Below are positions 2,846 to 26,099 of a stretch of 47,329 nucleotides of DNA, in pieces. The first letter of the stretch is position 1, and every line of letters starts with the position of its first letter. Under the pieces are notes generated by a model. That model saw only the letters and a program-made list of their open reading frames with translations. It searched no databases and was not told the DNA's origin. The stretch comes from Chitinophagaceae bacterium (GTDB lineage: Bacteria; Bacteroidota; Bacteroidia; Chitinophagales; Chitinophagaceae), in assembly GCA_004173355.1 (NCBI GenBank), contig SEAD01000023.1, forward strand, positions 1-47,329, in the 5' to 3' direction. A program made the translations under genes and the position numbers.

Positions 2846-4108
2846 ATGTCCACGAAGGAACGGATACTTTTTATCCTTTGCATCATTTTTTTTGCCTCCC
2901 TGTTTTCACCGGTTTTTATCGCCCTGAAGACAATTTCCATGGCTGCCCTCGCTGCTTTTTCCATCGCATTTCCCTTTATCAGGCCAGTGTCACCCGTCAG
3001 GATCCACAAGCCTTTTATATTTTTCACCGCTGCATTTGCCGGCTGGTTATTACTCAGCACAACCTGGTCAGATAATGCCGGTGATTCGTCCCGGTTTATC
3101 GTGCTGCGGCTACCATTGATCATCCTTCCGTTTACACTCGGACTCGTCAGCACTTCCCTGGCATTCCGCAACCGGCTCCTGCTGGCACTTGCATGGATCG
3201 TACTGGTTGCAGTTTCTTTCAGTGCGGCATCCGCTACCATGTATGCCCTCCGGGAAAACAACCCCGACCGCTTTTACAATGATTACCTCTCGATGGCCAT
3301 CAACCAGCAGTCCATCTATACATCGGCACTGGTAAATATTTCCATTTATATTTTCACATGGGCATTGTGGCGGTCAAAAACTACCGCGCGCCGGGTCCTG
3401 TATATCTCTGCTATCCTGTTATTGCTTGTGCTTGGTTTCCTGCTTGCAAGCCGCAATATGATGGTATTACTTTACGGAAGTATTTTCCTGGCAGCGATCT
3501 ACCTCGTGATCTCGCGTAAAAAATATATTGCCGGTCTAGCTGTATTGGGCACGCTGGCCGGACTGCTGGTCATCATTTTTTCTTTCTTCCCCAAAACACT
3601 AAACCGTTTCAATGAACTAAGGTTCACCAGTTACTCTTTTAACAGCGAAGCTGGTGAAGCACATTATTCCGGCAACCTCAGTTCGGAACAATGGAACGGT
3701 GCCAATTTCCGGCTGGCTGCATGGTCATGCGGATGGGAGCTGGCCAAACGCGCACCTGTGGCGGGTGTCGGGATCGGTGACAAACGGGATGCCCTTTACA
3801 GCGTGTACCAGGAACGTGATTTTAAATTTGGCCTCCGGGCTAAAAAGAATGTACATAACAACTACCTGGACATCCTGCTGAGTCTTGGTGTCATCGGACT
3901 GGTGCTGTTTACCGTTGGATGGTTGCTGATCCCGGCGATGGTGTTTATCCGCCGGAAGGATTATCTCGCCCTCTGGATTACCATTACCCTGGCATTCGCG
4001 ATGATCACGGAAGTGTATTTTGACCGTAGCCTCGGTGGATTGATTTTTGGTTTTTTTATCCCGCTGTTGCTGATCGGGCGCGGACCACGCGACACACAAG
4101 CTTCCTAA
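2846..4108 (+). CDS. O-antigen ligase / polymerase family membrane protein
   Basis: A 420-aa polytopic inner-membrane protein with about 11-12 hydrophobic segments. Between residues about 260 and 345 lies a large hydrophilic loop with GANFRLAAWSCGWELAKRAP, GVGIGD and HNNYLDILLSLG. This R...W...G(V/I)G...HN(x)YL pattern is the hallmark of the Wzy_C / WaaL family, which ligates or polymerises undecaprenyl-linked glycans on the periplasmic side. Because the neighbouring exporter is of the ABC type, ligase is more likely than Wzy polymerase (inference). The ATG is at 2846. A 7-of-8 match to the -7 element, TAATTTTA, lies at 2817-2824. It is the only plus-strand gene in the locus, and its TAA interlocks with the Wzt stop. 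Confidence 0.85.
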   Translation: MSTKERILFILCIIFFASLFSPVFIALKTISMAALAAFSIAFPFIRPVSPVRIHKPFIFFTAAFAGWLLLSTTWSDNAGDSSRFIVLRLPLIILPFTLGLVSTSLAFRNRLLLALAWIVLVAVSFSAASATMYALRENNPDRFYNDYLSMAINQQSIYTSALVNISIYIFTWALWRSKTTARRVLYISAILLLLVLGFLLASRNMMVLLYGSIFLAAIYLVISRKKYIAGLAVLGTLAGLLVIIFSFFPKTLNRFNELRFTSYSFNSEAGEAHYSGNLSSEQWNGANFRLAAWSCGWELAKRAPVAGVGIGDKRDALYSVYQERDFKFGLRAKKNVHNNYLDILLSLGVIGLVLFTVGWLLIPAMVFIRRKDYLALWITITLAFAMITEVYFDRSLGGLIFGFFIPLLLIGRGPRDTQAS

Positions 4109-4842
4109 CTATTGTCGGCGTGATACAACTCGATCGCTTTGGCAGTATCGCCGATAAAGACCAGTTCCCCATTTTTCATATACATTGTCCGTCTGCAGTA
4201 ATTCTGGATAGTCTGCATAGTATGACTTACAAGCACTACCGTTTTCCCTTCAATCCAGGAGCTTTCAAAAACCTTCACGGCCTTTTCCTGAAACTTCATG
4301 TCCCCAACGGCAAAAATTTCGTCGAGGAACATAATATCTGCCCCGGCCTTGACAGCGATGGAAAATCCAAGCCTCGCGGTCATTCCCGAAGAAAAGTATT
4401 TGATCTTGGTATCCACGAAATCCCGTAATTCGGCAAAGTCGATAATCTCATCAAAAATTGCATCGATATCCTTGATTTTCATACCCAGCACAGAGCCCGA
4501 TACATAAATATTTTCCCTTGCCGTAAGCATGGTGCTCATGCCGACCCCGAGGTTCATCAGCATGGTTGTTCCGTCAATTTCAAGTGATCCCGCATCAACA
4601 GGATATACGCCGGCCAGCAATTTCACCAGTGTTGACTTTCCGGAGCCATTCCTGCCGATCAACCCGATACACTCCCCTTTTTCGATATGCAGGCTCAATG
4701 GTTTGATGGCCTGCACGATTTTGCGGGTAGGTGAATTAAACAGGTTGAATAAACGCTGCTTCACCGTGTTGTGACTGTCCTCCGTAATGTGAAAGCTCTT
4801 GCTTATAGTTTTTGCTTCAATGGCGTATTTAATATTCTCCAT
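4105..4842 (-). CDS. wzt: Polysaccharide ABC exporter ATPase (Wzt-like)
   Basis: A 245-aa ATP-binding subunit of an ABC-2 polysaccharide exporter. Seen: Walker A GRNGSGKST (63-71), signature SSGMT (151-155), Walker B IMFLDE (170-175) and H-loop His207. The family assignment rests on the stretch MLMNLGVGM after the Walker A region and IFAVGD after Walker B. It powers flipping of lipid-linked glycan across the inner membrane together with the permease next to it. Its length corresponds to the ATPase domain alone: the C-terminal carbohydrate-binding domain of O9a-type Wzt is absent, so substrate recognition must come from elsewhere. It is the last gene of the long minus-strand operon. Confidence 0.93.
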   Translation of the reverse strand: MENIKYAIEAKTISKSFHITEDSHNTVKQRLFNLFNSPTRKIVQAIKPLSLHIEKGECIGLIGRNGSGKSTLVKLLAGVYPVDAGSLEIDGTTMLMNLGVGMSTMLTARENIYVSGSVLGMKIKDIDAIFDEIIDFAELRDFVDTKIKYFSSGMTARLGFSIAVKAGADIMFLDEIFAVGDMKFQEKAVKVFESSWIEGKTVVLVSHTMQTIQNYCRRTMYMKNGELVFIGDTAKAIELYHADNS

Positions 4843-4845
4843 TTG

Positions 4846-5643
4846 TTACAGTTTTTCTGCGGCCTTTGAGCCAAGTATATTGAGAAGGTAAAGACCAAGG
4901 GCAAGCAGTGCACCCGCATAAAGCCAGCCGAATGCGAACAGGTTCCAGTCGGGATCCTGCCCATGCAGGAGAACATTCCGGGCGTTGATGATTATTCCGG
5001 AAATCGGGTTAATGTAATCCAGTCCGGGCAGCGCGTCCCGGAATTTATCCAGCCGGAACAGGATCGGGGAAAGCCAGAATCCAAGACCGGTGACGACCAT
5101 CCATACCTGTGTGATATCCTTTGCAACTATATAAATGTTGGACAGGATCAGCGAAAATGCAAGGGAGAACAGCCACAGGTTCAGGAAAATGGGGATGAAA
5201 TAAAGCGAATGCCATCCAAAGCCCGGCGTATTCTTCTCAATCAGGTGGAAGTAAAGGGAAAACATAACAAAATTGAAGAAAAACCCGATGCAGTTACTGA
5301 TAAGCGTTGCCAGGTAAATTTCAAGCTTGTTCATGTTCGTGTATTCATAGAGATATTTCTTGGCTGAAAGGATCTGTATGGTGCCGGATGTGGATTCAAC
5401 AAAAAAGTTCCACATGATGAGGCCGATAAACAGGAATGAAATAAAATTCGGAACTCCCTGTTTCATGATAACCTCAAAGGCCACATAATAAATAACGATA
5501 TCAGATACCGGTTTTATCAGTGCCCAGAGAAGCCCCAATTTGTTTTCGTAGTACCGAAGCTTGAATTCAATCTTCGCCATCAGCCACAACCTTTCCAGCT
5601 TATTGGTACGCCCGGACCAGTCCTTCACAATTCTGTTCAGCAT
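4846..5643 (-). CDS. wzm: Polysaccharide ABC exporter permease (Wzm-like)
   Basis: A 265-aa inner-membrane protein of the ABC-2 transporter family with about six hydrophobic helices. An N-terminal amphipathic stretch, LMAKIEFKLRYYENKLGLLW, is followed by the first helix, as is typical of Wzm/KpsM/TagG permeases. The PISGIIINARNVLLHG segment near residues 215-230 matches the family's conserved periplasmic re-entrant region. It pairs with the ATPase 3 bp downstream to export lipid-linked glycan. The ATG is at 5643, 3 bp from the glycosyltransferase upstream. Confidence 0.92.
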   Translation of the reverse strand: MLNRIVKDWSGRTNKLERLWLMAKIEFKLRYYENKLGLLWALIKPVSDIVIYYVAFEVIMKQGVPNFISFLFIGLIMWNFFVESTSGTIQILSAKKYLYEYTNMNKLEIYLATLISNCIGFFFNFVMFSLYFHLIEKNTPGFGWHSLYFIPIFLNLWLFSLAFSLILSNIYIVAKDITQVWMVVTGLGFWLSPILFRLDKFRDALPGLDYINPISGIIINARNVLLHGQDPDWNLFAFGWLYAGALLALGLYLLNILGSKAAEKL

Positions 5644-5646
5644 TAA

Positions 5647-7818
5647 TTACTTTTTTATCACTTTATAGGCCATGTAAGCCATTCGTTTTATAAACCTGTT
5701 TCTTTTCACTGCTGCAACCAGTCCCGCCGGTATTTTTATCCCGAATGGCAGCAGCGTATCCAGGGCCTTGTCCAGCGTTGGATTATCCAGCGAGAGACCT
5801 GATCCGTTTGCGTTCTGCAGGGCTAAAATACCGGCTGCAAATTTACTGTAAATAGCAGCGTGACCTGCCATGACATGGTTCAGGAGATGCTGCTTCTTTA
5901 CAATTGAAATACCCCTGATCATGGAGTCCTGCCTGACCCGGTAGTAAAACAGAGGCTCCGGGATGATCACCCCGTTTAACCCCGCTGCCACCATTCCAAT
6001 CACGCTGTCATAGTCTTCAAGCCCAGGATAAAGCATCTGCCCGTCGTTGAGGCCAGCAGCCATAAATGATTCCCTTTTATAGACCAGTCCGCTGGAATTC
6101 ACGGTATTGTGATAAAGGATGAGCGGGGGTTCCGGCTGGAAAGTGGGCCAGATCCGTTCCGAACCCTCAGTATACTGTACCCATGCACCGGCAAAATGGA
6201 TGTTGGCGTAAGCAGCAAGTATGCGAATCGCCCGTGAATGGTACGCTGCATGAATAGTATCATCCGCATCAAGGAACGCAAGGTATTCGCCTGCTGAAGC
6301 CGCGGCACCCGAATTCCGGGCAGCTGCTAGCCCCTCGTTTGTCTTGTCAATTACACGGATATTTTCTTTTTCCCTGTATTGCTGAAGCTGGCGGACGCTG
6401 TATTCATCACTGCTGCCATCATTGACGATGATAATCTCAGTTGGCTTGTATGCCGATGCCTCAATCGACCTGATAGTTTCATCGATATACCGACCCATAT
6501 TGTAATAGGGAACCACAACAGATAAAAGACCCTTCGCGGCAACGGCGTTCTCTTGCAATGCAACTGTTACCGGCTGGGCCCGCACCACGGGAAACCCATT
6601 CACAGCAGCTGGTTGTGCCAGCAGGTTTTCCAGCAACGGGATCTTGGCAGCTGCTATCACCGCAGGACTGAAATGGTTTTTTACCCTCATCCGTGCCGCT
6701 TCCCCTATCATTGCCCTTTGCGCGGGATCAAGCGCAAGTACCAGGCGGAGCCGCTCTTCAAAAGATCCTTCCAGCAGGTGGTCAAACACAAATCCGTCTA
6801 TGCCGTCGTTTACTATTTCAGCCTGGCCCCCCTGTTTTGAAACAAGTACGACAAGACCCAGCGACATCATTTCAAAAACAACGTACGGAAGGTTATCATG
6901 GTAACTTGGCACGATAACCACTGCGGCTCCCGCAAGTCGTTTCGCCACGTCCACATGCCTTATCGGCTGCTCCAGTTTCAAGAGACCCTGCTTTTCATAC
7001 CTGGCAAATCTCTTCCGTAACACTTCGCCCATCATCAACCCTTCCGGATGATAGACGATTTCCTGCCCGCCAATCATCAGCAACGGCCGGGTGAATCCGG
7101 CATCCCACATACCGGCGAAATACCGCAGCAGGTGGAAACTGCCTTTCTGAGGACTGAGTTTCCCGTAATAAATGATTTCCCCGCCTCCCGCTACATTGCC
7201 TGTATCCTGGATTCCCAGTGATTTTGCTTCGAATGGATTGGGGATGACAGTAACCTGCCTGTGCAGTGGAAAGCGCTTTTCGATCTCCGTTACAATGTAA
7301 GCACTTGGTGACAACAGGAGATCTGCCGCACGCAGACAAAACCGCTCCATCTCGCAGATCCAGTACACCGGATAAGCGGAAAGGTTGACTTCGTTATATT
7401 CCAGGTAAAGGAAGGTGGGTGAATGAATTGTCAGTACTACCGGAATATCCTTACACCAGTCTTCCAGCAACCATTTATACTGCAGGAGATAATAAGCTAT
7501 CCCGAGGTATTCCTGTGATTCTATGATATCAGGAGGCGATTCCTTTCCAACAAAATGTCTGATGATATGTGCAAACTCGTATGCAATATTCGTGACATGA
7601 CCGAGGTAGGCAGAGGACCCGGTACGGGATGTATTGAACCGGACCAGCCGCACACCGTTGTCAATTGATTCGGTAAAATCCTTTACCCGCACATCACTCA
7701 CAAAAATGGTCACATCATGACCAGCATCGGCAAGCATACGTCCCGTAATGACGCAGTAAGTACCAATGCCCCCTCCGTAAAACGGTGGATATTCCGTTGT
7801 CAGCAGCCAGTACTTCAT
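5647..7818 (-). CDS. Bifunctional glycosyltransferase, GT4 + GT2
   Basis: A 723-aa protein with two complete glycosyltransferase units. Residues about 1-400 are GT-B family 4: N-terminal TTEYPPFYGGGIGTY, then GKLSPQKG, PSYHDNLPYVVFEMMSLG (the E...E donor motif) and KQGGQAEIV. Residues about 430-660 are GT-A family 2: SVVVPYYNMGRYIDETI, IIVNDGSSDEYS and the DxD-like FLDADDT. Two linked transferases probably add successive sugars to the growing glycan on the cytoplasmic side; sugars are unknown. The ATG at 7818 overlaps the stop of the gene upstream (ATGA). No signal peptide is seen, and the basic C-terminus (KRNRFIKRMAYMAYKVIKK) could touch the membrane. Confidence 0.9.
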   Translation of the reverse strand: MKYWLLTTEYPPFYGGGIGTYCVITGRMLADAGHDVTIFVSDVRVKDFTESIDNGVRLVRFNTSRTGSSAYLGHVTNIAYEFAHIIRHFVGKESPPDIIESQEYLGIAYYLLQYKWLLEDWCKDIPVVLTIHSPTFLYLEYNEVNLSAYPVYWICEMERFCLRAADLLLSPSAYIVTEIEKRFPLHRQVTVIPNPFEAKSLGIQDTGNVAGGGEIIYYGKLSPQKGSFHLLRYFAGMWDAGFTRPLLMIGGQEIVYHPEGLMMGEVLRKRFARYEKQGLLKLEQPIRHVDVAKRLAGAAVVIVPSYHDNLPYVVFEMMSLGLVVLVSKQGGQAEIVNDGIDGFVFDHLLEGSFEERLRLVLALDPAQRAMIGEAARMRVKNHFSPAVIAAAKIPLLENLLAQPAAVNGFPVVRAQPVTVALQENAVAAKGLLSVVVPYYNMGRYIDETIRSIEASAYKPTEIIIVNDGSSDEYSVRQLQQYREKENIRVIDKTNEGLAAARNSGAAASAGEYLAFLDADDTIHAAYHSRAIRILAAYANIHFAGAWVQYTEGSERIWPTFQPEPPLILYHNTVNSSGLVYKRESFMAAGLNDGQMLYPGLEDYDSVIGMVAAGLNGVIIPEPLFYYRVRQDSMIRGISIVKKQHLLNHVMAGHAAIYSKFAAGILALQNANGSGLSLDNPTLDKALDTLLPFGIKIPAGLVAAVKRNRFIKRMAYMAYKVIKK

Positions 7819-8639
7819 ACTTTCCTCCCTTTATCCCCTGCCACCGGCACGGCTTTCCATTTTCTTTTTCCCATTACCCATTTCACGATATGCCCCAACC
7901 TTTTGTACCAGCGGGGCAGCACCTCATATTCGTTGTTATAAAATTCCTGTATTTCATTTCCCTCGTGCGACAACTGCAGCAACTTATTGTAATCCCTGAA
8001 ATTCCGGAGCTCCTGGTGCAGGGACAAATTTGCTGCCAGCAAAACCCGGTTTTCCGACTGCACTGCGGCAAGCTTCTCCCGCAATTGCCAGCCTCCGGGA
8101 TCATACTCCCGGATTTTTTGTTCCAGTGCAGGTATTGACAACAAAAGATGCGGAACTGTTGCAGGCTCCTTTCCCTGCAAAAAAATCAGGTTGGCGTGTA
8201 AAGGATGTTTTAACATTTCTTCAGGTGAAGGGACTGTGTCAAAGATGCGGGGAACACCGGTGTGTTGACCCATGCCCAACCGCAGTATGCGTGGCCCGGC
8301 GAAACCCTGTGCCTGAAGGGAGGCAGCAAGTTCATCCGGTTCCGTCATTCCTTCAGGAATGGTCACCCATAACTGTCCGTCAATCCTGTCTGATCCCGGC
8401 AGGAAAAAGAAAGGCAATAGCTGCCGGGCATACTTTTCAAACAGCGAGGGTTCCTCAAAATGGAAACTGAACCGGATTGCAGGATTACGATCCAGAAATT
8501 GATAGAGCAGGTCGATGAAGCCGGAGTCCGGAGCAACAGTGATGAGGTTGACATAAGCAGCATTGCCGGCGGGCAACCCGCCAGCAGGCAACACGACAAC
8601 CGGCAGGAAAAAAAGTCCTCCGGCGTCGTCCTTGTTCAT
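7815..8639 (-). CDS. Unknown polysaccharide-locus protein with coiled coil and basic tail
   Basis: A 274-aa protein of no family I recognise. The first about 170 residues look like an alpha/beta domain (LITVAPDSGFIDLLYQFL, LWVTIPEGMTEPDELAASL). Residues about 175-245 are predicted by eye to be a coiled coil rich in Leu, Glu and Gln. The end is aromatic and basic: PRWYKRLGHIVKWVMGKRK. That tail resembles the ends of other proteins in this locus, so it may be a scaffold or partner of the transferases rather than an enzyme (inference). I used the ATG at 8639; a TTG eight codons upstream is possible but less likely. Its stop overlaps the start of the GT4-GT2 gene. Confidence 0.7.
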   Translation of the reverse strand: MNKDDAGGLFFLPVVVLPAGGLPAGNAAYVNLITVAPDSGFIDLLYQFLDRNPAIRFSFHFEEPSLFEKYARQLLPFFFLPGSDRIDGQLWVTIPEGMTEPDELAASLQAQGFAGPRILRLGMGQHTGVPRIFDTVPSPEEMLKHPLHANLIFLQGKEPATVPHLLLSIPALEQKIREYDPGGWQLREKLAAVQSENRVLLAANLSLHQELRNFRDYNKLLQLSHEGNEIQEFYNNEYEVLPRWYKRLGHIVKWVMGKRKWKAVPVAGDKGRKV

Positions 8640-8671
8640 ATTATATGGTTGTTCCGTACTCAACTATCGCA

Positions 8672-9406
8672 TTATAATTCGAGTTCTGTGATGCTGCCAC
8701 CGGAAGCGGTGACAACTGCGCTCAACAGCCGTTCCCAGCTATGGGTAACGGTTTCACCTTCTTCGTCCATGACATTACCTTGTTCCATTGTGGCACGGAT
8801 TTCAAGTGGTGAATACCGGGTAAAAAAATCACGTACCGGCCTCGCACTGCACCAGAACATCGTGCCTGCCACAAATTCCGTGACGCGGCCATTCAACCCA
8901 TATCGTTCGGATAGCTGTTGCAGCAATGGGTTGGACGACCCATTCCGCATTACTGTGCCGGCTGCGGTAATGATTCCGATGCCAGGGTTTGCCCTGAACA
9001 TGGCCAGTGCGCGGAGCACAAATTCCGGTTCCCCAATCCCTAACAATTTCCTGCTCCATGTTCCGGGATCCGGTTTTTGCGGACTCCGTTTATCATGGAG
9101 AAAAAGTAATGGTCCTTCCGCTCCCGTATTTTTCAGCCAGCTGTCCAGTAACAGGAGTTTGCCCCCGATATCTTTCCCGAGGTTCGGCGAAAACCGGAGA
9201 TGGAAATCCTGCAAATCTTCCCCGGCCTTTTCTCTGAAAAGACGGGAGACTCCTGCTGCGGAAATCTCCTGGTTGTAGAGGCTGTTCTCCACAATATTAT
9301 AATAGAGGTCAAAGGGATTCCGCCAGCCACGCAGCATTTCTGCCCACCTGGCATGATCTCCATAATAATTATGGAAAAAAACCGAAGCCTGTTTTCCCTT
9401 GTCCAC
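8672..9406 (-). CDS. RgpF-like rhamnan synthesis family protein
   Basis: A 244-aa protein resembling the rhamnan synthesis protein F (RgpF) family, which occurs in rhamnose-containing polysaccharide loci. Supporting motifs are VFFHNYYGD near the start, RFSPNLGKDIGGKLLLLD, the family-typical LFLHDKRSPQ and FVAGTMFWCSARPVRDF. Family members are thought to act in glycan assembly; no catalytic residue can be assigned here. I chose the GTG at 9406, directly after the upstream methyltransferase stop. The frame is open to an ATG at 9484, but those 26 codons would lie wholly on top of the methyltransferase 3' end. Confidence 0.78.
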   Translation of the reverse strand: MDKGKQASVFFHNYYGDHARWAEMLRGWRNPFDLYYNIVENSLYNQEISAAGVSRLFREKAGEDLQDFHLRFSPNLGKDIGGKLLLLDSWLKNTGAEGPLLFLHDKRSPQKPDPGTWSRKLLGIGEPEFVLRALAMFRANPGIGIITAAGTVMRNGSSNPLLQQLSERYGLNGRVTEFVAGTMFWCSARPVRDFFTRYSPLEIRATMEQGNVMDEEGETVTHSWERLLSAVVTASGGSITELEL

Positions 9407-9410
9407 TTGT

Positions 9411-10250
9411 TTATTTTTTGGCAACAATAAAACTCTGTTCCCCTCCGAGGTAGCCATATACATCGGACCAGAGTAGTAATACATATGCGTCCCTGAAACC
9501 TGCTTTCTTTAACTGCTCCAGAACCTCCCATCCAAATACGGTGTAACAGAGTATACCATCCCCATTTACCGGATCGCCATGATATTCCGGCTCGGTCAGG
9601 TATGTGATCGTTCCATCAGGGTCTTCCCTTGCTTTTACCAGGTTTGAATCCGCATTTATATCGAAAGGGAACGTGCCCATGAACATACCTCCGGATCGCA
9701 GCACACGGTACATTTCGGGAAACACCCTTTCATAATGCGGGATATGTTCAAGACATTCAAAAGACAGGTACAGGTCCGTGGACCCGGTTCCGAGCGAAAG
9801 GTTTCGCATATCCTCGTGATTGATCCCATTGACTATGGTGCCGGGTTCCATGTCCGGACCGAGGAATTCTGAACCCCGCAATCCGGCATAGCGTTGTTGG
9901 AGGAAACTGAACAAAGGAGTGACCTGTTCGGTCACGTAAATAATACTTTCCGGGTAAGGCTCCAGCTCCATGTCAAGCACATGCACCGAGGCACGCAGGC
10001 GGTTGTTGAGGCCTGTCACCGGACATACAAGACGTTCCCTCCAGTTAATATCTTCACCATTCCCGTATTGGTAATCCACCTGGAGATCGACAAAACTATC
10101 AGCCGGATAGGAAATTGCCCTGACCTTGAATTCCTTCTTCCCTTTCACCGTAACCGCCTGCTGCAGCGAAACCCGCCGGGCATACTCCGCCCTGTTTTTT
10201 TCTACATGGGTTATGTAGTCACTAAGACTTTTTAAACGATGAACTATCAT
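9411..10250 (-). CDS. Class I SAM-dependent methyltransferase-like protein
   Basis: A 279-aa protein whose C-terminal two thirds resembles Methyltransf_11. The clearest pieces are LSFECLEHIPHYERVFPEMYRVLRSGGMFMGTFPF (motifs post-I to III, given here only as a landmark around residues 164-198) and the LGPD stretch near residue 130, which stands where SAM motif II is expected. The canonical glycine-rich motif I (GxGxG) is not obvious; the region CPVTGLNNRLRASVHVLD may be a zinc-less relative of the leader seen in some sugar methyltransferases. Substrate unknown, probably a sugar of the exported glycan. The ATG at 10250 overlaps the upstream stop (ATGA). Confidence 0.78.
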   Translation of the reverse strand: MIVHRLKSLSDYITHVEKNRAEYARRVSLQQAVTVKGKKEFKVRAISYPADSFVDLQVDYQYGNGEDINWRERLVCPVTGLNNRLRASVHVLDMELEPYPESIIYVTEQVTPLFSFLQQRYAGLRGSEFLGPDMEPGTIVNGINHEDMRNLSLGTGSTDLYLSFECLEHIPHYERVFPEMYRVLRSGGMFMGTFPFDINADSNLVKAREDPDGTITYLTEPEYHGDPVNGDGILCYTVFGWEVLEQLKKAGFRDAYVLLLWSDVYGYLGGEQSFIVAKK

Positions 10251-12409
10251 TCTGGTTTGCGTGGTTTTTTGGAAATAAATGGCACGGATTGCCGGATAAA
10301 GGATTTGATCATCCTCAAGCGGCTTGTTGAAAGCGAGTACACTTCATGTTCAAGGCCTTTGTTATGCTTATCCAGTCGTTGTTGCTCGGAGATCGCGTGC
10401 TGTACCTGCTGCCGGAGGCTCTCCGATTCCCGTTGCCATTGATCCTGTTGTGTCCGGAGGTCATCGAGTTGTTGCTGGTCCTGTTCCTTTTCCCTCCGGA
10501 GGATTTCCATCTGCTGCTGATCCCTTTGCTGCTGTTGCAGGGCTTCGGTCAGCAATTCACTCGATTTGAGCAACTGCTCCAGGTGTTCCTTTCCCTTTGA
10601 AGCAAGGAGCTGCTGAATTTCCTCAACCGATGTTGATGTGCCGTGTCGAAGCATACGTTCAAGTTCCTCCAGCCGCAGTATTTCCGCTTTCAATGCGTTC
10701 AGATCCGCCTGGTGTTCATTAATCCGTACAAGGTCCTGGCTGGAGGGCCGAACCCTGAGACTGCTCAGTGCGTCTTTTGTGCTCCGCGTGTCGGTTGTAC
10801 TGATTGCCCTTGCCAGCGTGGCATCCTCTTCATAGAAATGGTTTAATTCCTCGGGTGTCCCCGGGTAGTCGAGTAACCGGAAGACCCGTTCCATCAGGTA
10901 ACCGGCGTCCGCGAGCTGGTGTTCTGCCGGTCGTGCGACACTCGCCAGTCTTGTCAGGGACACAAAAAGTGCCCTGAACAAAAGATAGGAGAGTGGCTGT
11001 GTGCTGCCGTTATCCAGTTCCAGATCAATAAATGTGGCCTTGCCTTTATGCTGCAACACATTGATCGGAATAGCGTCCAGGTATTTTCCTGGCAGTCGTT
11101 TGTCAAAAAGTATTTTATCGCCCTGCAGGAGCTGGGTATCACTTTCAGTTTGCAGGAGCCTGATCCATTCCCTCAACCATGCTGCCACCTGCTCAGCGGT
11201 CCATGATTCACGATTTACCAGTTTCACCAGTTCAAAATGATGGAGCACACCGGGAAGCATTTTTTCCTGTGCAGGGAAATTCACCAGACCCGGCGATGCA
11301 TTTTCCTGTTCGCTGAGGAAACTGCGTTCGATCACACAGCCGGTACCGGTTGCATGGAAGGTAATAGACTTACAGAATTCCTTGCGACGCTCCGTAGCAT
11401 ATTGCTGCAGGAGGATATCCGCCGGTTCCCTCTGTACGGCGTCAGGCATCCAGGAAAGCACACAGAACGAATTGGTAAGCTCGCCAAGCAAACCATTGGC
11501 GGCTACCAATGGGAGTGATTTGTCCAGGGAAAAAAGCGGCACCTGTTTCTGCTGATCCTTGAAAGAAATATTGGAGAAAATGCTTTGCAGCTCTTCGCGG
11601 CCGAGCACCTCCTGTCCCTCAAACTTCGGATACACAACCATGGACGGAAGCTTATAATCGGGAAAGGGGAGGAATACCTCATTGCGCGGAAAACCGGCGT
11701 CAGCAAGGATTGACAGCAGTTGCTTCCTGCCCCAGGTGTTAGCCTCGCCACGCTGGTAATTGTCATTGACATTGTGCATCAGCACCCCATTGTGATCCTC
11801 GGCAAAACCGGAAAGGTATTTTAACCCAAGCTGGTTTTCGATCGCAGTGATCATAAAACCGTCCTTCTTCAGCAGGCTCTTCAGCACTGAAAGGAAAAAC
11901 TGCGGCTCGTCCGGATGTTTTGAATACTTGGTTGCATATTCAAGCACGCCTACCTGGATGATCCCGTCGTATTCATTGCTTCCGGAGAACGACTCAAGGT
12001 CATCACAGAAAACAGTTACCTCAGGCAGGTCGCGGCAACGTTCTGCGGCAATCCGTGCACGTTCCATACTGGGTTCAACCGCATGTACAACCGCTCCGCA
12101 TTCGCCAAGGAAGCGGGTGATCGGTCCTGCTCCACACCCTGGTTCAAGTATTTTTTTCCCTTTGAATAATGCGACAAAGGGCCGAAGGAGGTTAGCCCGT
12201 TTTTTGGAAAGGGAACAGAGACTGACCCAGTCAAAGATTTCCTTTTCCAGTTCGTCCGAAAGAGACGAAAGGTCACCCGCCCTGAGCACCGACTGGTAAA
12301 TCCGTTCTTCCACAGCCGTACCGTCGGAATAGGGGATCCTGTAATTGTAGTCAGGACGTTGCCAGACTTTGTACTCCTCATTAAACTGGTAATCCGTAGT
12401 CTTCTGCAT
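10247..12409 (-). CDS. Methyltransferase-kinase-coiled coil protein, WbdD-like
   Basis: A 720-aa protein in three parts. Residues about 30-260 are a class I SAM methyltransferase with motif I LEPGCGAG at 88-95 and the ENQLGLKYLSG stretch at 191-201. Residues about 300-515 look like a protein-kinase fold: the catalytic loop reads LDAIPIN with Asp445 and Asn450 spaced as in D-x4-N kinases, followed by FIDLEL with Asp462 in the DFG position. Residues about 560-690 form a long Gln/Glu-rich coiled coil, and the end is basic (RLRMIKSFIRQ...KKPRK). The order matches E. coli WbdD, which phosphorylates and methylates the glycan end and measures chain length with its coiled coil. Function here is inferred. 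Confidence 0.8.
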   Translation of the reverse strand: MQKTTDYQFNEEYKVWQRPDYNYRIPYSDGTAVEERIYQSVLRAGDLSSLSDELEKEIFDWVSLCSLSKKRANLLRPFVALFKGKKILEPGCGAGPITRFLGECGAVVHAVEPSMERARIAAERCRDLPEVTVFCDDLESFSGSNEYDGIIQVGVLEYATKYSKHPDEPQFFLSVLKSLLKKDGFMITAIENQLGLKYLSGFAEDHNGVLMHNVNDNYQRGEANTWGRKQLLSILADAGFPRNEVFLPFPDYKLPSMVVYPKFEGQEVLGREELQSIFSNISFKDQQKQVPLFSLDKSLPLVAANGLLGELTNSFCVLSWMPDAVQREPADILLQQYATERRKEFCKSITFHATGTGCVIERSFLSEQENASPGLVNFPAQEKMLPGVLHHFELVKLVNRESWTAEQVAAWLREWIRLLQTESDTQLLQGDKILFDKRLPGKYLDAIPINVLQHKGKATFIDLELDNGSTQPLSYLLFRALFVSLTRLASVARPAEHQLADAGYLMERVFRLLDYPGTPEELNHFYEEDATLARAISTTDTRSTKDALSSLRVRPSSQDLVRINEHQADLNALKAEILRLEELERMLRHGTSTSVEEIQQLLASKGKEHLEQLLKSSELLTEALQQQQRDQQQMEILRREKEQDQQQLDDLRTQQDQWQRESESLRQQVQHAISEQQRLDKHNKGLEHEVYSLSTSRLRMIKSFIRQSVPFISKKPRKPE

Positions 12410-15201: not shown

Positions 15202-15910
15202 CTGCGGTTATTAAAATTGACTGGCTGATTACCTTAAGCGGTGTTTTCTCCAGCAGGTTCCCAACCACGATCGATGGCCGGATGAGGAAAGAGGTAACAC
15301 CGGGCAACAGGAAGTCCTTGTAACGGGTATCAATATTCCTGAAACCCGCCGATTTCAGCTTTGCATTGATAAATGATCTGGAAAAAGCCATTTCATCGGG
15401 TTCCAGTTTCGCCCACTTCCGCATAGGAGCCACTTTAAAAATTGCGGCCACATATGGATTATAGATATTCGGCTCCATGAAAATGATGCGGCCTTCCGGG
15501 CGCAGCAGTTTACGGAACGACTGCAGCACTGCGTCCAGGTTATAGTACAGGTGATGGAGGATGCCATTGCCAATTATGTAATCATACTGATCATTAATCC
15601 CCGACGCTTCGGTGTTGAAATCAATCGTGTCGTATACGAGGTTGGATAGCGGGTATTTTATCCTTGCTTCCTCAATGAATGGTACGCAGAGATCTGAACC
15701 AGTAACCTGCATTCCCGTTTGGCGGGCAATATACCAGGATACAAAACCGGTACCGCATCCGATTTCCAGTACCTTTTTGTTTTCATCGCGATCCATAAGA
15801 TCGATCATCCACTGCGCGCGCCGCTCCATTCTCTTTCTGAGTGCAGGAGTTTCCCTGAATCCCTGGTTGTACCCGCGATCATCCACTATTGACGTCTTGT
15901 TTTCAAGCAT
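15194..15910 (-). CDS. SAM-dependent methyltransferase
   Basis: A 238-aa class I methyltransferase. Motif I is VLEIGCGTGFVSWYIA (about residues 47-62), then VTGSDLCVPFIEEA (motif II) and YDYIIGNGILHHLYYNLD and LRPEGRIIFMEPN (motifs III-IV). The HH-based signature is common in Methyltransf_11/25 proteins that modify sugars or quinones. In this locus it probably methylates a sugar or the glycan end. It overlaps by 8 bp both the gene upstream and the gene downstream, so the three are surely co-transcribed. Confidence 0.87.
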   Translation of the reverse strand: MLENKTSIVDDRGYNQGFRETPALRKRMERRAQWMIDLMDRDENKKVLEIGCGTGFVSWYIARQTGMQVTGSDLCVPFIEEARIKYPLSNLVYDTIDFNTEASGINDQYDYIIGNGILHHLYYNLDAVLQSFRKLLRPEGRIIFMEPNIYNPYVAAIFKVAPMRKWAKLEPDEMAFSRSFINAKLKSAGFRNIDTRYKDFLLPGVTSFLIRPSIVVGNLLEKTPLKVISQSILITADA

Positions 15911-17843
15911 CCTGAACAGATTGTAAAATTCTTCTTCTGATATATTTAGGTCGTTTTTTTACTTCTTCGAGGATTTTTGCCTGGTATTCACCAAGTATGG
16001 ATACAGCCAGCATATTCAGTCCGCCGAAGAAAAGCACCAGTACGATTATGGTTGTAATACCATGCGGAACGGGTGTGCCCGCCAGGTATAAAATAATCTG
16101 CAGCAGGGCTGCCAGTAATGACACTGCGGTCAGTGTCCATCCCAGGTAAGTCAGCAGTTCCAGCGGAACATAACTGAAAGAGAAAATCGCTTTTCTTGCC
16201 CATCCGATATTTTTCCGCCAGTTGTTGGTAGTGGTACCAAACATGCGCTCGGGCCGTACATACGGCACACCTACCTGTTTGAAACCTACCCATGCCCGCA
16301 GGCCGCGGAGGAACTGGTCCGTTTCGGGCAGCCTGACCAGTTCGGTAACCACTTTGCGGTCCATCATGGAAAAATCCCCGGCATCAAGTGGTATCGGTAC
16401 ATAGGACAGATTGCGGAAGATGCGGTAAAAAACTTTATACAGCCGGACCAGGAACCGGTTGCCCTCTCGTTTCACACGCTGTCCGTATACCACATCAAAT
16501 CCCTCCTTCCAGCGGGTATAAAAATCCGCGATCAGCTCTGGCGGGTCCTGCAGGTCACCATCCATCAGCACTACCACATCACCGGTTGAAATCTCCATAC
16601 CGCTCATGAAAGCGCTCTGCGATCCGAAATTCCTTGAATGTTCAATCCCGATCACATGCTTGTCTTTATGCACCAGGCCTTCCAGGATATCATTTGTGTT
16701 GTCGGGGCTGGCATCATTCACAAAAATGATCTCATAATCGACATTGATCTGCTGGCACACTTTCACAATCCGCTCATACATGATCGGAATTGCCTGCGCG
16801 TCCTTGTAGCACGCGATGACGGCGGTTACTTTATGTACGACAAGATCCTGGAATAATTTTTTTTCGTACAGGGGTTTTGAATACTGCTTCTGCCATTCAT
16901 ATGTTTTCAGCAGTCCTTCTTTCAGTGGAGTGAGCGATTCCCAGCCCAATGCTTTCTTTGCATATGCGGCATTACCGTACCATTCCCTGAGGTCCCATTT
17001 ACGATCGGCAAACTCGCCCCAGACAGGCTCCCGGGAAATATTGAAGATTTCCGCTGACACTTTCGCTATATCGCTGATAGTTGTTTTTTTATTGGAGGCA
17101 ATATTGATCGACTTGCCGCCGATCTCTTCATAATCGGCATTGGCTGCCAGCAGCGTTGCGTAGATGGCATCATCTATATATACAAAGTCGCGTGAGATGG
17201 CTGGCTGCACCAGCGGTGGGTAGGTGCCCTGCATTCCTTTTTCAATGATCTGCGGTATGAGACGGTCCGGTTCTTCGTATTCCCCGTAAATGGAATAGTA
17301 ACGAAGATTGACTACAGGTACCTGCAGGATAGTGCCATAGTAACGGATCATCTGCGCAGCTGAAGCTTTTGTCACAGAATAATGGCTGTTGGGCATCAGC
17401 TCGGCATTTTCAAGTGGCTCTTTTGCATTCAGTCCATATTCCGAGGAACTGCCGGCATGCACAAATGCGCGGAGGTTGTATGCGGATGATACCTGCAGGA
17501 GGTTGAGCAGCCCGATCACATTCGTCTGGTATGTCAGCTTCACATCCGATTGTTTGGAATACGCCCCATAGGCTGCCAGGTGAAAGATGGTCCGGAATTT
17601 ATACTTCGAAAAAATCCGTTCGATATCGGTTTCCCTTGTGATATCGGCATACAGAATCCGGTCTTCACGAAGGTCGTCGATCCTCCAGGGAATAAATGGT
17701 TGCTTTGAAGTGACAGCGTATACATCGTCGCGCTGCGCCAGGATAAACCGGAAAAGATTGCTTCCGATAAATCCTCCCGCGCCAAACACCACTATTGGAC
17801 CCTGCAGCCTGAGTATTTCCTTTTTTATAAGATTGGATAACAT
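15903..17843 (-). CDS. Fusion: NAD-dependent sugar epimerase/dehydratase + GtrB-like GT2
   Basis: A 646-aa protein with two enzymes in one chain. Residues 1 to about 325 are an extended SDR: GAGGFIGSN (21-29) binds NAD(P), SSSEYG holds the catalytic Ser region, and HYSVTK gives Tyr155 and Lys159. Residues about 337-646 are a GT2 of the GtrB/ArnC/DPM-synthase type: IFVNDASPDNT, MDGDLQDPPE (Asp428, Asp430) and two C-terminal helices (about 560-585 and 595-618). That branch makes polyprenyl-phosphate sugars. The SDR half may make the nucleotide sugar the GT2 half then loads onto the lipid (inference). ATG at 17843; the reading frame is continuous across the junction, with no stop codon or frameshift. 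Confidence 0.88.
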   Translation of the reverse strand: MLSNLIKKEILRLQGPIVVFGAGGFIGSNLFRFILAQRDDVYAVTSKQPFIPWRIDDLREDRILYADITRETDIERIFSKYKFRTIFHLAAYGAYSKQSDVKLTYQTNVIGLLNLLQVSSAYNLRAFVHAGSSSEYGLNAKEPLENAELMPNSHYSVTKASAAQMIRYYGTILQVPVVNLRYYSIYGEYEEPDRLIPQIIEKGMQGTYPPLVQPAISRDFVYIDDAIYATLLAANADYEEIGGKSINIASNKKTTISDIAKVSAEIFNISREPVWGEFADRKWDLREWYGNAAYAKKALGWESLTPLKEGLLKTYEWQKQYSKPLYEKKLFQDLVVHKVTAVIACYKDAQAIPIMYERIVKVCQQINVDYEIIFVNDASPDNTNDILEGLVHKDKHVIGIEHSRNFGSQSAFMSGMEISTGDVVVLMDGDLQDPPELIADFYTRWKEGFDVVYGQRVKREGNRFLVRLYKVFYRIFRNLSYVPIPLDAGDFSMMDRKVVTELVRLPETDQFLRGLRAWVGFKQVGVPYVRPERMFGTTTNNWRKNIGWARKAIFSFSYVPLELLTYLGWTLTAVSLLAALLQIILYLAGTPVPHGITTIIVLVLFFGGLNMLAVSILGEYQAKILEEVKKRPKYIRRRILQSVQDA

Positions 17844-17849
17844 ATTTTA

Positions 17850-18752
17850 TCAGCTTAAAAATTCAGTCAGACTTTCCAGCAAAGCATTTCCTCCCAGGGA
17901 ATTTTCTTCCTGGTGCCAGGCTTGTGAACCATACTTTCCACTTGGATAACCCGAAGCGTAGAGCGTGTGGTACCCGATTGGCACGGTCAGCGTTTTCAGC
18001 AGCAGGCTTGCCAGGGTCTCATGCATACCACACTGGCCCTGGTGCTCTTCTATAGTAATCAGCTTCCGTGTAGTTGTTATGGCCTCTGTCAGTCCGGCCG
18101 GGAGTTCCCTGACGGGGAACTCACTCAGTAACCAGACCTCCAGCTGACCTGTTACCGATTCCGGGAGTTTCGAAAGGTTTTCCACCACAGACCCGGTACC
18201 TACAACTACCGCCCTCCGATCTGCACCTGCAGCCAGTTTCCGCCACTGCGCAAATCCTGCAGTAGGCTGGTTTGACGCAAGATTCAGCCGCAGGTAGTTG
18301 GGCATCGGATCACTGATCATTTTTTCGAGCGCGGCACCGACATCACTTCCCGTGAATGGCACAAATACTTTCATATCCGGCAGGATCCGCATCGATCCGA
18401 TATCTTCTATATTGTGATGTGAGCTTCCCATTATCCCATATCCATACCCGCCGCCATTCGCCACAATTTTAACCGGAAGTTTGTGAAGGCAGATATCATT
18501 ACGGATCTGCTCATACGGACGTAGTGTGACGAAAGGGGATATGCTGTAAATGATGGGTATAAACCCTTCATGGGCGAGACCTGCGGCGATGCTTGCCATG
18601 TTCTGCTCTGCGACCCCGACATTGATAAACCGTTCGCCCAGTATCTCCCGCACTTTTTCAAGTGCCATAAATCCAAGGTCGCCGGTCAGGAACAAAACCC
18701 GCTCATCGTTTTGCGCAAGCCGCACTACAGCATCAGCAAATTCTTTTCTCAT
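17850..18752 (-). CDS. Transketolase, C-terminal subunit
   Basis: A 300-aa protein matching the pyrimidine-binding and C-terminal domains of transketolase. TGDLGFMALE opens the Pyr domain, INVGVAEQNMASIAAGLA contains the Glu that activates thiamine diphosphate, and GYGIMGSSHHNIEDIG follows as in family members. The full-length enzyme would be about 600-660 aa; here the N-terminal half is encoded just upstream with a 4 bp overlap (ATGA), so the two probably form a heteromer. It would transfer a two-carbon ketol unit. Being within a glycan locus suggests a special sugar rather than the pentose phosphate pathway (inference). Confidence 0.9.
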   Translation of the reverse strand: MRKEFADAVVRLAQNDERVLFLTGDLGFMALEKVREILGERFINVGVAEQNMASIAAGLAHEGFIPIIYSISPFVTLRPYEQIRNDICLHKLPVKIVANGGGYGYGIMGSSHHNIEDIGSMRILPDMKVFVPFTGSDVGAALEKMISDPMPNYLRLNLASNQPTAGFAQWRKLAAGADRRAVVVGTGSVVENLSKLPESVTGQLEVWLLSEFPVRELPAGLTEAITTTRKLITIEEHQGQCGMHETLASLLLKTLTVPIGYHTLYASGYPSGKYGSQAWHQEENSLGGNALLESLTEFLS

Positions 18753-19507
18753 GCGGGTATTATTAATTTATTGAAATCCTCCTCTGTAAGCGGAAGGTAA
18801 TGGCAATCCACTGTATCCTGCAGCAGGAGTTCGCGGCCTTTAACCGTGTTACAGATTACTGCCAGCGGCTTTTGTTTGTCCCATCCGTTTACGGCCGCCT
18901 CCATTGATTCAAAATCGTGGCCATCTGCCTTTGCAACGGTAAAACCAAAAGCTTCCAGTTTCTGGTCGAGGGGCTCCATACGGATCACATCTTCTGTGCG
19001 ACCGAATCCCTGGATAAAATTGCGGTCTATCATCCAGATCACATTTGTCAGGTTGTGGTGACTGATAAACATCGCAGCCTCCCAGATGCTGCCTTCATTC
19101 AGCTCGCCATCGGACGTAAGACAGAATATCTGTTTACTGGACTTGCGCAGCCGTGCTGCCAGTCCGAGCCCGGCGGCCACTGATAAGCCGTGGCCAAGAC
19201 TGCCGGTGGCAAAGGGAATCGACCGGACCTTTCCTACCGGCGGATGCGCGGGCAGCATCGTAGCATCCCTGTAAAAACTGCTGATCTCCTCGCGGCTGAT
19301 TTCCCCGGCCTGGGCCAGTACACTGTACAACAATGCGGCAGCATGCCCCTTCGACAGGATCATATCATCCCCTGCGCTATGCAACCTGAACCGTATAAAG
19401 ACGAGCATTTCCAGGCAGGACAACGAGCACCCCACATGGCCTGCGTTGGCAGACCTGTACATCCGGACCAGCCTGTCCCTTACTTCATCCCTGATTTTTT
19501 CCAGCAT
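18749..19507 (-). CDS. Transketolase, N-terminal (thiamine diphosphate) subunit
   Basis: A 252-aa protein matching the N-terminal thiamine diphosphate domain of transketolase. Seen: SANAGHVGCSLSCLEML, LSKGHAAALLYS, the GSLGHGLSVAAG stretch that contacts the diphosphate, and the metal-binding motif SDGELNEGSIWEA ending in WMIDRN. The first Gly of the usual GDG is Ser here, which is seen in other split transketolases. It is encoded immediately upstream of the partner subunit. ATG at 19507. Confidence 0.9.
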   Translation of the reverse strand: MLEKIRDEVRDRLVRMYRSANAGHVGCSLSCLEMLVFIRFRLHSAGDDMILSKGHAAALLYSVLAQAGEISREEISSFYRDATMLPAHPPVGKVRSIPFATGSLGHGLSVAAGLGLAARLRKSSKQIFCLTSDGELNEGSIWEAAMFISHHNLTNVIWMIDRNFIQGFGRTEDVIRMEPLDQKLEAFGFTVAKADGHDFESMEAAVNGWDKQKPLAVICNTVKGRELLLQDTVDCHYLPLTEEDFNKLIIPA

Positions 19508-23880: not shown

Positions 23881-25005
23881 TTAAGCAAGCGTCCATTTTG
23901 CACGATTGCTCCCAGCTGTTAATATTGAACCTGCATACAATTCGCGGTAACTCTTGAAATTCTCCGCCATATCAAATTCATCCCGGCAGATTTCGGCCGA
24001 ATATTTTCCCATAATATCCAGCATCTCCGGATTGTTCTGGTACTGCATGATCTTGATGATCGCTTCCGATGCATTCCTGAACAGGTCACCATTCAGGCCC
24101 GTTTTTACCAGGTCGATATTGCCGGTGCATTCACTAAGCAATACCGGCTTCTTCAGCGCCAGTGCTTCAAGGGCTGCAAACGACATGCCTTCATAATCTG
24201 AAGTGGAAAGATATATATGCGACGCCGCTACATAATCATGCACGCCGCTTTTATCCAGCCAGCCGGTGACTGTTATATTCTTCGAAGTAAAATTATGTTT
24301 CGAACTGCCATCACCGATCCAGATAAATTCAATACCCGGTACATCCTGGAAGTATCCGGCAATGGTATTGAAGAGAGCCGGGTTCTTCTGCTTCTCGATA
24401 CGGCCACTCGTCACAATCCTGAATTTGCCGTCACGCAGTTTCAGCCTGCGTTCCGGACGTTCCTTCACGTTAATGCCGTTGTTTATATAATCGGCTTTTA
24501 TACCCATATCCAGGTAGTGTTGAAGCTCTGAAGGGGAACAGCACACCACGTTACCGCCGAAACGGTTGCCCAGTTTTTCCAGCTGCCTGTAAATAAAACG
24601 GGACACCTTATTGGAGGCTGAAAGGAATGACGCCCCATTCGGGGTATAAAACACATTTTTGATACCGACCATCCGGCAGGCCATGCGGCCCAGCAATCCA
24701 CTTTTCGACGAATGCAGGTGCACGGCATCAATCATCTCCTTGGCTTTCAGCCGACGGAGGATCTTGAATAACTCAAAAAATGCGAGGAAATCCTTGGGAA
24801 TATTGATCGAACGCTGGGCAGATCGCCAGCGGATAAAGCGCACATTTCCCCTTGGGAAATTTTTCTTGACCATATCGGCCGGAATCTCCTCCTTCCGCTC
24901 GCCATGAACGACGATGTGAAGGTCGTCGGGCATTGATTCTGCCAATGACTTGACAAAAACCGCTATCCCGCCGGCAAATGGTTCAACAATATGCACAATT
25001 ATCAT
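23881..25005 (-). CDS. GT4 family glycosyltransferase
   Basis: A 374-aa GT-B glycosyltransferase. The N-terminal acceptor domain begins MIIVHIVEPFAGGIAVFVKS and has VHLHSSKSGLLGRM. The C-terminal donor domain has FRIVTSGRIEKQKNP, WIGDGSSKH, STSDYEGMSFAALEALALKK (the E-x7-E motif) and a GLNGDLF stretch. It works in the cytoplasm on lipid-linked acceptors; sugar unknown. I chose the ATG at 25005, because the homologous beta strand begins there; the frame is open nine codons upstream to a TTG at 25032. It is the first gene after the paaZ operon terminator and so probably starts a transcript. Confidence 0.88.
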   Translation of the reverse strand: MIIVHIVEPFAGGIAVFVKSLAESMPDDLHIVVHGERKEEIPADMVKKNFPRGNVRFIRWRSAQRSINIPKDFLAFFELFKILRRLKAKEMIDAVHLHSSKSGLLGRMACRMVGIKNVFYTPNGASFLSASNKVSRFIYRQLEKLGNRFGGNVVCCSPSELQHYLDMGIKADYINNGINVKERPERRLKLRDGKFRIVTSGRIEKQKNPALFNTIAGYFQDVPGIEFIWIGDGSSKHNFTSKNITVTGWLDKSGVHDYVAASHIYLSTSDYEGMSFAALEALALKKPVLLSECTGNIDLVKTGLNGDLFRNASEAIIKIMQYQNNPEMLDIMGKYSAEICRDEFDMAENFKSYRELYAGSILTAGSNRAKWTLA

Positions 25006-25214
25006 AACTACACAGTTTTCTGATGCAGGCAACAGGTTGGTTTCTGTTACCTATATACTAATTCCGTCCGATACGGAAGGGGGTTCAAACCTGCCGTCGA
25101 TCCGGGTGACCTGGCTAACATAACCTACGGCGCATATAATGATGCCAGACCGTAAAAATTACATTCACCTGCTACTAAAAAAGGTGGAAAATCAGTTAAC
25201 TAAAGCCTCAACGA

Positions 25215-25253: not shown

Positions 25254-25280
25254 GAAAAAGAAACGTTGCTTAAACGTTTC
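25254..25280 (-). terminator. Rho-independent terminator of the paaZ operon
   Basis: The inverted repeat GAAACGTT / AACGTTTC (25260-25267 and 25273-25280, 5-nt loop) is followed on the minus strand by TTTTTC. It starts within the stop codon of the GT2 gene (25279-25281), so it ends the operon paaZ to GT2 and separates it from the polysaccharide locus. Confidence 0.75.
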
Positions 25281-26091: not shown

Positions 26092-26099
26092 GGAGATCG

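Follow-up and report, generated by a model that had tools for sequence, protein, structure and literature searches.

In several bacterial O-antigen systems, the enzyme that ends the polysaccharide chain and the transporter that exports it form a matched pair. This is the case for O3/O9a, O5/O8, O12 and O7, in which a terminator is paired with an exporter accepting only terminated chains (PMC11231755), and coupling this close is said to restrict how O-antigens diversify (PMC10629545). In Escherichia coli O9a, the terminator WbdD carries a methyltransferase, a kinase and a coiled-coil ruler, and its partner, the exporter ATPase Wzt, has a carbohydrate-binding domain (CBD) that reads the cap. Another terminator, considered by its discoverers to be distinct from WbdD, is the N-terminal part of Klebsiella pneumoniae O7 ORF6, a protein that phosphorylates and then methylates the rhamnose end of the chain; its D441A substitution abolishes phosphorylation (Kelly et al., 2024; PMC11231755). 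Some exporters have no such reader. The K. pneumoniae O1/O2 exporter, without a carbohydrate-binding module (CBM), shows relaxed specificity: it moves chains whether or not they end in pyruvate and, in recombinants, can move the terminated O3a glycan (PMC10629545). The Vibrio cholerae O1 exporter also lacks a CBM, although its chains may bear a terminal methyl (PMC10629545). The combination of a cap and a CBM-less exporter is thus not new in itself. Here we analyze a stretch of 47,329 nucleotides from a Chitinophagaceae bacterium (assembly GCA_004173355.1, contig SEAD01000023.1), hereafter “the window.” Its O-antigen locus encodes a candidate terminator made of methyltransferase, kinase-like and coiled-coil parts (MTK, positions 10247–12409, reverse strand) as well as a Wzt with no detectable CBD. 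On balance, we favor the reading that an O7-type terminator occupies a variable cassette in an otherwise conserved O-antigen locus, whose generic exporter would not require the cap as a license.

A candidate terminator of the O7 type

MTK and its parts are as follows, all on the reverse strand (−):

10247–12409 (−): MTK, methyltransferase-kinase-coiled coil protein, 720 amino acids (aa), candidate chain terminator of the K. pneumoniae O7 ORF6-N type
11624–12331 (−): class I S-adenosylmethionine (SAM) methyltransferase domain, residues 27–262 approximately, with LEPGCGAG at 88–95 (Pfam PF13649 and others, structure comparison)
10766–11620 (−): APH/choline-kinase-like domain, residues 264–548 as modeled alone (predicted fold and structure comparison)
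11015–11077 (−): kinase catalytic motif, residues 445–465, with D445, N450, D462 and E464 (alignment)
10286–10741 (−): coiled coil, residues 557–708, candidate ruler (AlphaFold2 model and heptad score)
10247–10339 (−), stop codon included: basic C-terminal end, last 30 residues, with 8 K/R and 1 D/E

The open reading frame (ORF) is uninterrupted. A Pfam scan recognizes the methyltransferase part alone, which resembles many class I enzymes in structure comparison (best Z 16.7; CgnL, Z 15.8), and a Pfam search of the kinase region found no family common to its members. In an alignment of MTK with 22 homologs, the methyltransferase residues Y27, G91, G93, E112 and Y158 are invariant (23/23), while position 65 is a tyrosine in 21 sequences and a cysteine in the window protein and one other. 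The catalytic segment of the kinase-like part reads YLDAIPINVLQ...FIDLEL and contains D445, N450 and D462. D445, N450, E464 and R479 are invariant in the same alignment, and position 462 is an aspartate in 21 of the 23 sequences.

The AlphaFold2 model, built with the 22 homologs, has a mean predicted local distance difference test (pLDDT) of 84.4 and a predicted template modeling score of 0.77. It ends in two long helices (557–589 and 595–708), and the heptad-periodicity score of residues 557–708 was matched by none of 2000 shuffles. Folded separately, the kinase region reached a pLDDT of 84.1. Its nearest structures are AmiN (6sui; Z 7.5, root-mean-square deviation 4.4, 183 residues aligned), followed by APH(3′) and choline kinases, at Z values of about 7 that may, as the tool itself warns for any Z below 8, reflect a common arrangement. 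Some protein kinases are also among the matches, ranked lower and without significance. Foldseek put APH first for this model (best E 0.036, not significant); for the full-length protein its list is dominated by methyltransferases and is uninformative on the kinase. The sequence profile of the kinase region touches choline kinase (E 0.49) and APH (E 0.68) at the catalytic motif, neither significantly, and its best match among PDB sequences, 8tm0 (NKG2-D, E 0.003), was taken as chance.

Judging from sequence and models together, the nearest characterized match to MTK is the methyltransferase/aminoglycoside-kinase-like terminator of K. pneumoniae O7, not WbdD. Kelly et al. (2024) found the ORF6 methyltransferase to be closest to CgnL (Z 16.7) and its unannotated domain closest to AmiN (Z 7.4; PMC11231755). 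Because MTK has these same structural neighbors, and because the O7 type is distinct from WbdD, we place it with the O7 type. Both proteins are arranged as a methyltransferase, an APH/AmiN-like kinase and a coiled coil. Five of the six SAM-site residues named for O7 (Y28, Y66, G91, G93, E112, Y158) are matched in MTK, equivalence being judged by position: G91, G93, E112 and Y158 carry the same numbers in both, and the catalytic aspartate is residue 441 in O7 and 445 here. Contrary to ORF6, MTK has no fused C-terminal glycosyltransferases, and the exporter of its locus has no CBD. The O7 prototype also has an extra, immunoglobulin-like domain between kinase and coiled coil, which is not among the features listed for all orthologs (PMC11231755) and is therefore not defining. 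In the MTK model no domain is present between residue 546 and the helix starting at 557, hence no immunoglobulin-like CBM.

The original prediction, made from the letters alone, had described a WbdD-like protein. Its SAM motif and the positions D445, N450 and D462 were exact, and the order of methyltransferase, kinase-like segment and coiled coil is borne out by Pfam, the AlphaFold2 model and the heptad score. Structure prediction of the kinase region did yield an APH-type kinase-like fold, with middling support. The coiled coil and its basic end are also there, the former being nearer 150 residues than the 130 proposed. The WbdD label has to be given up: a phmmer search of MTK against PDB chains returned no WbdD at E ≤ 1, the presence of WbdD chains in the library being presumed, and the structural neighbors are those of O7 ORF6. 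WbdD was also absent among the structure matches listed for the full-length and kinase models, which carries no evidential weight.

An exporter without a carbohydrate-binding domain and its conserved locus

The Wzt of the window is 245 aa long, with ABC_tran as the sole Pfam family above cut-off. A Wzt_C domain (PF14524) encoded elsewhere in the same genome was considered and rejected, as PF14524 has no match across the whole of it; as a positive control, the profile matched five out of five CBD-length Wzts scanned from loci of MTK relatives. The short form was found in 26 of 244 Chitinophagaceae genomes, the window's included, and the 25 others are 72–81% identical to it; truncation or an assembly artifact was therefore rejected. 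Together with Pontibacter and Niastella, these make up the 28 clade genomes examined below. When they were surveyed along with Candidatus Contendobacter, PF14524 gave 14 matches in 12 of the 29 genomes. Five of the 14 fell below cut-off, the profile being weak on Bacteroidota CBDs, so that a very divergent reader could be missed. Thirteen lie in frames of 407–488 aa, the size of a full Wzt, and one in a broken frame of 111 aa; none of the 29 genomes showed an intact stand-alone Wzt_C domain.

In a quick tree of Wzt ATPase domains, the CBD-less sequences form one group (27 rows, support 100, stem of 2.02 changes per site), within which the Niastella vici Wzt nests among those of Chitinophagaceae. 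The group stands away from the CBD-length Wzts linked to MTK. The tree covers 95 of 116 rows, taken from the top of the BLAST order; the short Wzt of Contendobacter is one of the 21 left out. That the window Wzt might have lost its CBD beside MTK was rejected, since it belongs to a separate clade and to a conserved locus that is mostly without MTK.

The genes of this locus, apart from those of the cassette end discussed further below, are:

2846–4108 (+): O-antigen ligase family protein (PF04932), convergent to wzt, fixed core
4105–4842 (−): Wzt, 245 aa, nucleotide-binding domain only, no CBD
4846–5643 (−): Wzm, membrane subunit of the O-polysaccharide ABC transporter
5647–7818 (−): fusion of GT4 and GT2 glycosyltransferases, 723 aa, adjoining wzm in 27/28 clade stretches (a contig end cuts off the remaining one)
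8672–9484 (−): RgpF-like protein, start codon uncertain, no Pfam match of its own, 32% identical to a Pontibacter protein matching PF05045
9411–10250 (−): methyltransferase-like protein in one operon with MTK (4-base overlap of its start with the MTK stop)
23881–25032 (−): GT4 glycosyltransferase, far flank, relatives in 17/28 clade stretches
25279–26196 (−): GT2 glycosyltransferase, far flank, relatives in 13/28 clade stretches

The order GT4-GT2, Wzm, Wzt recurs in 27 of the 28 clade stretches, as does a ligase-family gene, the gaps corresponding to contig ends (G634, G539). CBD-less Wzt, Wzm, GT4-GT2 and ligase make up the fixed part of an O-antigen locus in which the cassettes are swappable. 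A genome of the same genus (G001) illustrates this, keeping the core (Wzt 77%, GT4 83% identical) around another cassette without MTK. The closest described exporters are the K. pneumoniae O1/O2a Wzm-Wzt pairs, which are CBM-less like that of the window; O1/O2a exporters have a permissive substrate range, and O1 exports capped and uncapped chains. The likeness has its bounds: the cap known for O1, a pyruvate, has no part in setting chain length, and the window Wzt scores 134.7 bits on the galactan exporter equivalog NF050108, against a cut-off of 400. V. cholerae O1 likewise combines a terminal modification (the Ogawa 2-O-methyl) with a CBM-less exporter, with the difference that it is a methyl only; the passage on it mentions neither kinase nor ruler (PMC10629545).

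Further genes of the cassette are worth recording. A 646-aa protein (15903–17843, −) joins a sugar epimerase/dehydratase to a GT2 glycosyltransferase, and a transketolase split into two genes for its N and C parts (17850–19507, −) suggests an unusual sugar precursor. The methyltransferase-like protein at 9411–10250 (−) matches only the second half of Methyltransf_11 and has no obvious glycine-rich SAM motif.

Encounters between terminator and exporter

A profile scan from four MTK homologs over a collection of 84,980 species genomes gave at least 548 relatives, the best 80 of which were kept. These come from Pseudomonadota, Nitrospirota, Acidobacteriota, Bacteroidota, Chloroflexota and others, including one Methanosarcina metagenome-assembled genome (MAG). 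With two plasmid loci added, 82 loci were inspected for Wzt: it has 437–495 aa in 49 of them, is short in two and is missing from the stretch in 31. “Long” here refers to ORF length, the domain itself having been scanned in five of the 49. The two short ones are those of Contendobacter (243 aa) and Pontibacter (268 aa, in a longer stretch), and a short Wzt as the common companion of MTK was therefore rejected (2/51).

In a draw of 395 genomes across the phylum, five of 90 Wzt-like matches lie in frames shorter than 300 aa, and of these five the window's and that of G036 belong to the CBD-less clade. In a phylum draw of this size, MTK occurs only in the window and in G335. These draws scored the best candidates per genome (seven for Wzt, up to 18 for the conserved tail described below), so that a weak match could be missed. 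Beyond its methyltransferase part, MTK has no match in any of 98 relatives. Among the 25 other Chitinophagaceae genomes with a clade Wzt, one (G577) has MTK, next to a near-copy of the locus start on another contig; export is therefore probably independent of this cap.

In a quick, midpoint-rooted tree of MTK, the window protein with that of Niastella vici (support 100) and the Pontibacter protein with that of G577 (99) stand apart, with Contendobacter in a third place. The pairing of MTK with a CBD-less Wzt, as far as sequence comparison goes, is rare but recurrent, in two separated MTK lineages; the association with the clade is biased by sampling, Pontibacter and Niastella having been reached via MTK. 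The simplest reading would be a generic exporter serving changing glycans, whose cassettes the terminator entered more than once. A limited literature search, with subscription journals mostly outside its reach, found no coiled-coil methyltransferase-kinase terminator natively paired with a CBM-less exporter; among the matches listed for O-antigen loci of Chitinophaga, Chitinophaga is not mentioned.

MTK relatives occur in other settings too. In Candidatus Contendobacter (L026, 9194–14077), an MTK-GT2 fusion of 1376 aa adjoins the CBD-less Wzt, and a CBD-bearing Wzt lies some 39 kb away on the same contig. The MTK of G335 (contig C79, L143) sits in an open frame of about 1250 aa, preceded by about 600 residues of other sequence; that genome has its Wzt-like match, in a long frame of 449 aa, on a different contig. 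Giant MTK frames of 2493–3496 aa (L025, L029, L034, L036, L046, L048, L078, L096; Methylophilus, Nitrospirales) have no Wzt in the stretches examined. The MTK on a MAG contig labeled “Bacteroidetes bacterium” (L051) groups with that of a Sulfuritalea MAG (support 100), and is probably mis-binned or recently transferred.

Capping, coupling and a conserved tail

Next to the exporter genes lies a protein whose end is shared by much of the clade:

7815–8663 (−): 282-aa protein with a variable N-part, a short helical part and a conserved C-terminal tail
7848–7961 (−): conserved tail of about 40 residues, Y..EYE.LP.W(Y/F)K..GH..K

The relatives of this protein differ over their first 200 residues and have the tail in common, with 14 invariant positions in nine sequences. 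Glycosyltransferases of 360, 790, 795 and 797 aa end in this tail too, and it is also present at loci L155, L157, L159–L161, L165, L167–L169, L172, L139 and L094. No Pfam family matches the tail, and profile searches of Pfam and PDB with the whole protein gave coiled-coil or chance matches only. A profile made from 13 tails detects it in 18 of the 28 clade genomes and in none of 22 Chitinophagaceae genomes without the clade Wzt (Fisher 7.7e-7, phylogeny ignored). Twelve of the 18 had supplied the profile's rows; of the 16 clade genomes outside the profile, six have the tail, against the same 0/22. The control genomes were confirmed to be without the clade Wzt (the best match is 44% identical, and every match lies in a frame of 419–452 aa); in 12 of them a CBD-length Wzt takes its place. 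Across the phylum, two of the 395 genomes drawn have the tail, the same two that carry the CBD-less clade. Of the 18 positive genomes, 16 have the tail under 10 kb from wzt; in G655 the distance is about 2 Mb, and in G554 broken contigs make it unplaceable. It is undetected in 10 of the 28 clade genomes. It is present in all 13 clade stretches with an RgpF-like gene, window included. In G049, a 59% relative of the 9411–10250 protein adjoins RgpF-like and tail genes. On this distribution the tail is a candidate coupling element, possibly a docking tail for the assembly complex, its newness being judged against Pfam.

In the favored reading, the APH-like kinase of MTK would phosphorylate the non-reducing end of a lipid-linked O-polysaccharide, where the methyltransferase would then add its methyl. 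The coiled coil would keep the active sites off the membrane, so that capping would occur only above a minimum chain length. MTK would have been acquired into a variable cassette of the conserved locus with its generic exporter (Wzm and CBD-less Wzt), and the cap would most likely set chain length and end chemistry rather than license export. Export would be coupled to synthesis by another route, as in K. pneumoniae O2a, where coupling is described as a matter of stoichiometry (PMC11231755). The clade relatives, mostly without MTK as in G001, indicate that the same exporter is used without this cap.

Several observations weigh against this scheme. Loss of the kinase step blocks export in both K. 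pneumoniae O7 (PMC11231755) and E. coli O9a (PMC3482155), which means that the nearest characterized relatives do use their cap as a license, and CBD-type transporters stripped of their CBD fail to export capped chains (PMC9445017). Of the 51 MTK relatives with a Wzt in the stretch, 49 keep one of CBD length. The closest homolog of MTK (50% identical, among the best 80), that of Niastella vici, sits among unrelated genes, apart from the CBD-less Wzt of its genome (76%). Support for the kinase fold is middling, with Z values of about 7 and a best Foldseek E of 0.036, and the O7-type assignment was made by residue position, fold and published description.

The original prediction had Wzt stopping at the ATPase domain, from which it drew either export without the known recognition step or reading by another protein of the locus. 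Wzt does stop there, no separate Wzt_C partner turned up in the 29 genomes, and the same pairing in relatives is rare (2/51) and recurs in separated lineages. The known reader is thus missing as proposed, but capped chains with CBM-less exporters have been described before, in K. pneumoniae O1 and V. cholerae O1. A reader elsewhere in the locus is a live alternative, with the tail-bearing protein or GT4-GT2 as candidates: either could dock on the CBD-less Wzm/Wzt, bringing along the chain or its assembly complex. That a CBD is reported to function in trans (PMC9445017) speaks for such reading, as do the confinement of the tail, in the genomes searched, to the CBD-less clade, its closeness to wzt and its presence on different proteins. 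The clade genomes with no detected tail and the distant tail gene of G655 speak against it; moreover, the N-part of the 282-aa protein has no known family or solved relative, sugar binding by this protein is purely conjectural, and the constant company of RgpF-like genes means that the tail may serve a glycosyltransferase. We regard reading in trans as rather unlikely. A bolder version, in which, within a lineage of Bacteroidota, a portable tail of about 40 residues, on whichever assembly protein the cassette encodes, functionally replaces the cap-reading domain of Wzt and ties the synthesis and termination complex to the fixed exporter, is a speculative proposal that we would not expect to hold.

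MTK could also be a decorating enzyme, adding phosphate or methyl to some chains for diversity with no control of length, much as WbbZ pyruvylates K. pneumoniae O1 chains or as the Ogawa methyl is added in V. cholerae O1. Both precedents have CBM-less exporters (PMC10629545), most genomes with the clade exporter are without MTK, and the Niastella MTK is unlinked to the exporter locus. A coiled coil of about 150 residues has no evident place in a decorating enzyme, however, and a coiled-coil-like C-terminal part with a similar basic end is kept in the closest homolog, that of Niastella vici, the basic end being absent in Pontibacter; mere decoration thus seems doubtful. As for a strict WbdD homolog with a eukaryotic-type kinase, the shared order of parts and the D-x4-N spacing noted in the original prediction speak for it, and MTK would work in a similar way. 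The lack of any WbdD sequence match at E ≤ 1, the nearest folds (APH, AmiN and choline kinases) and the published separation of the O7 family from WbdD (PMC11231755) make this highly improbable. A generic exporter, independent of the cassette, best accounts for the apparently missing recognition step, with the clade-specific tail as a candidate replacement for coupling.

Two separate enzyme lineages thus have an O7-type terminator in genomes with an exporter clade of which no member seen shows a CBD. Such a natural combination of MTK with a CBD-less exporter would allow a clean test of whether the cap only measures the chain or also licenses its export. The clade-specific tail is a concrete candidate for the link between CBD-less exporters and synthesis and, if it is indeed a portable docking tail, a ruler-type terminator could be swapped into these loci without a matching cap-reader.

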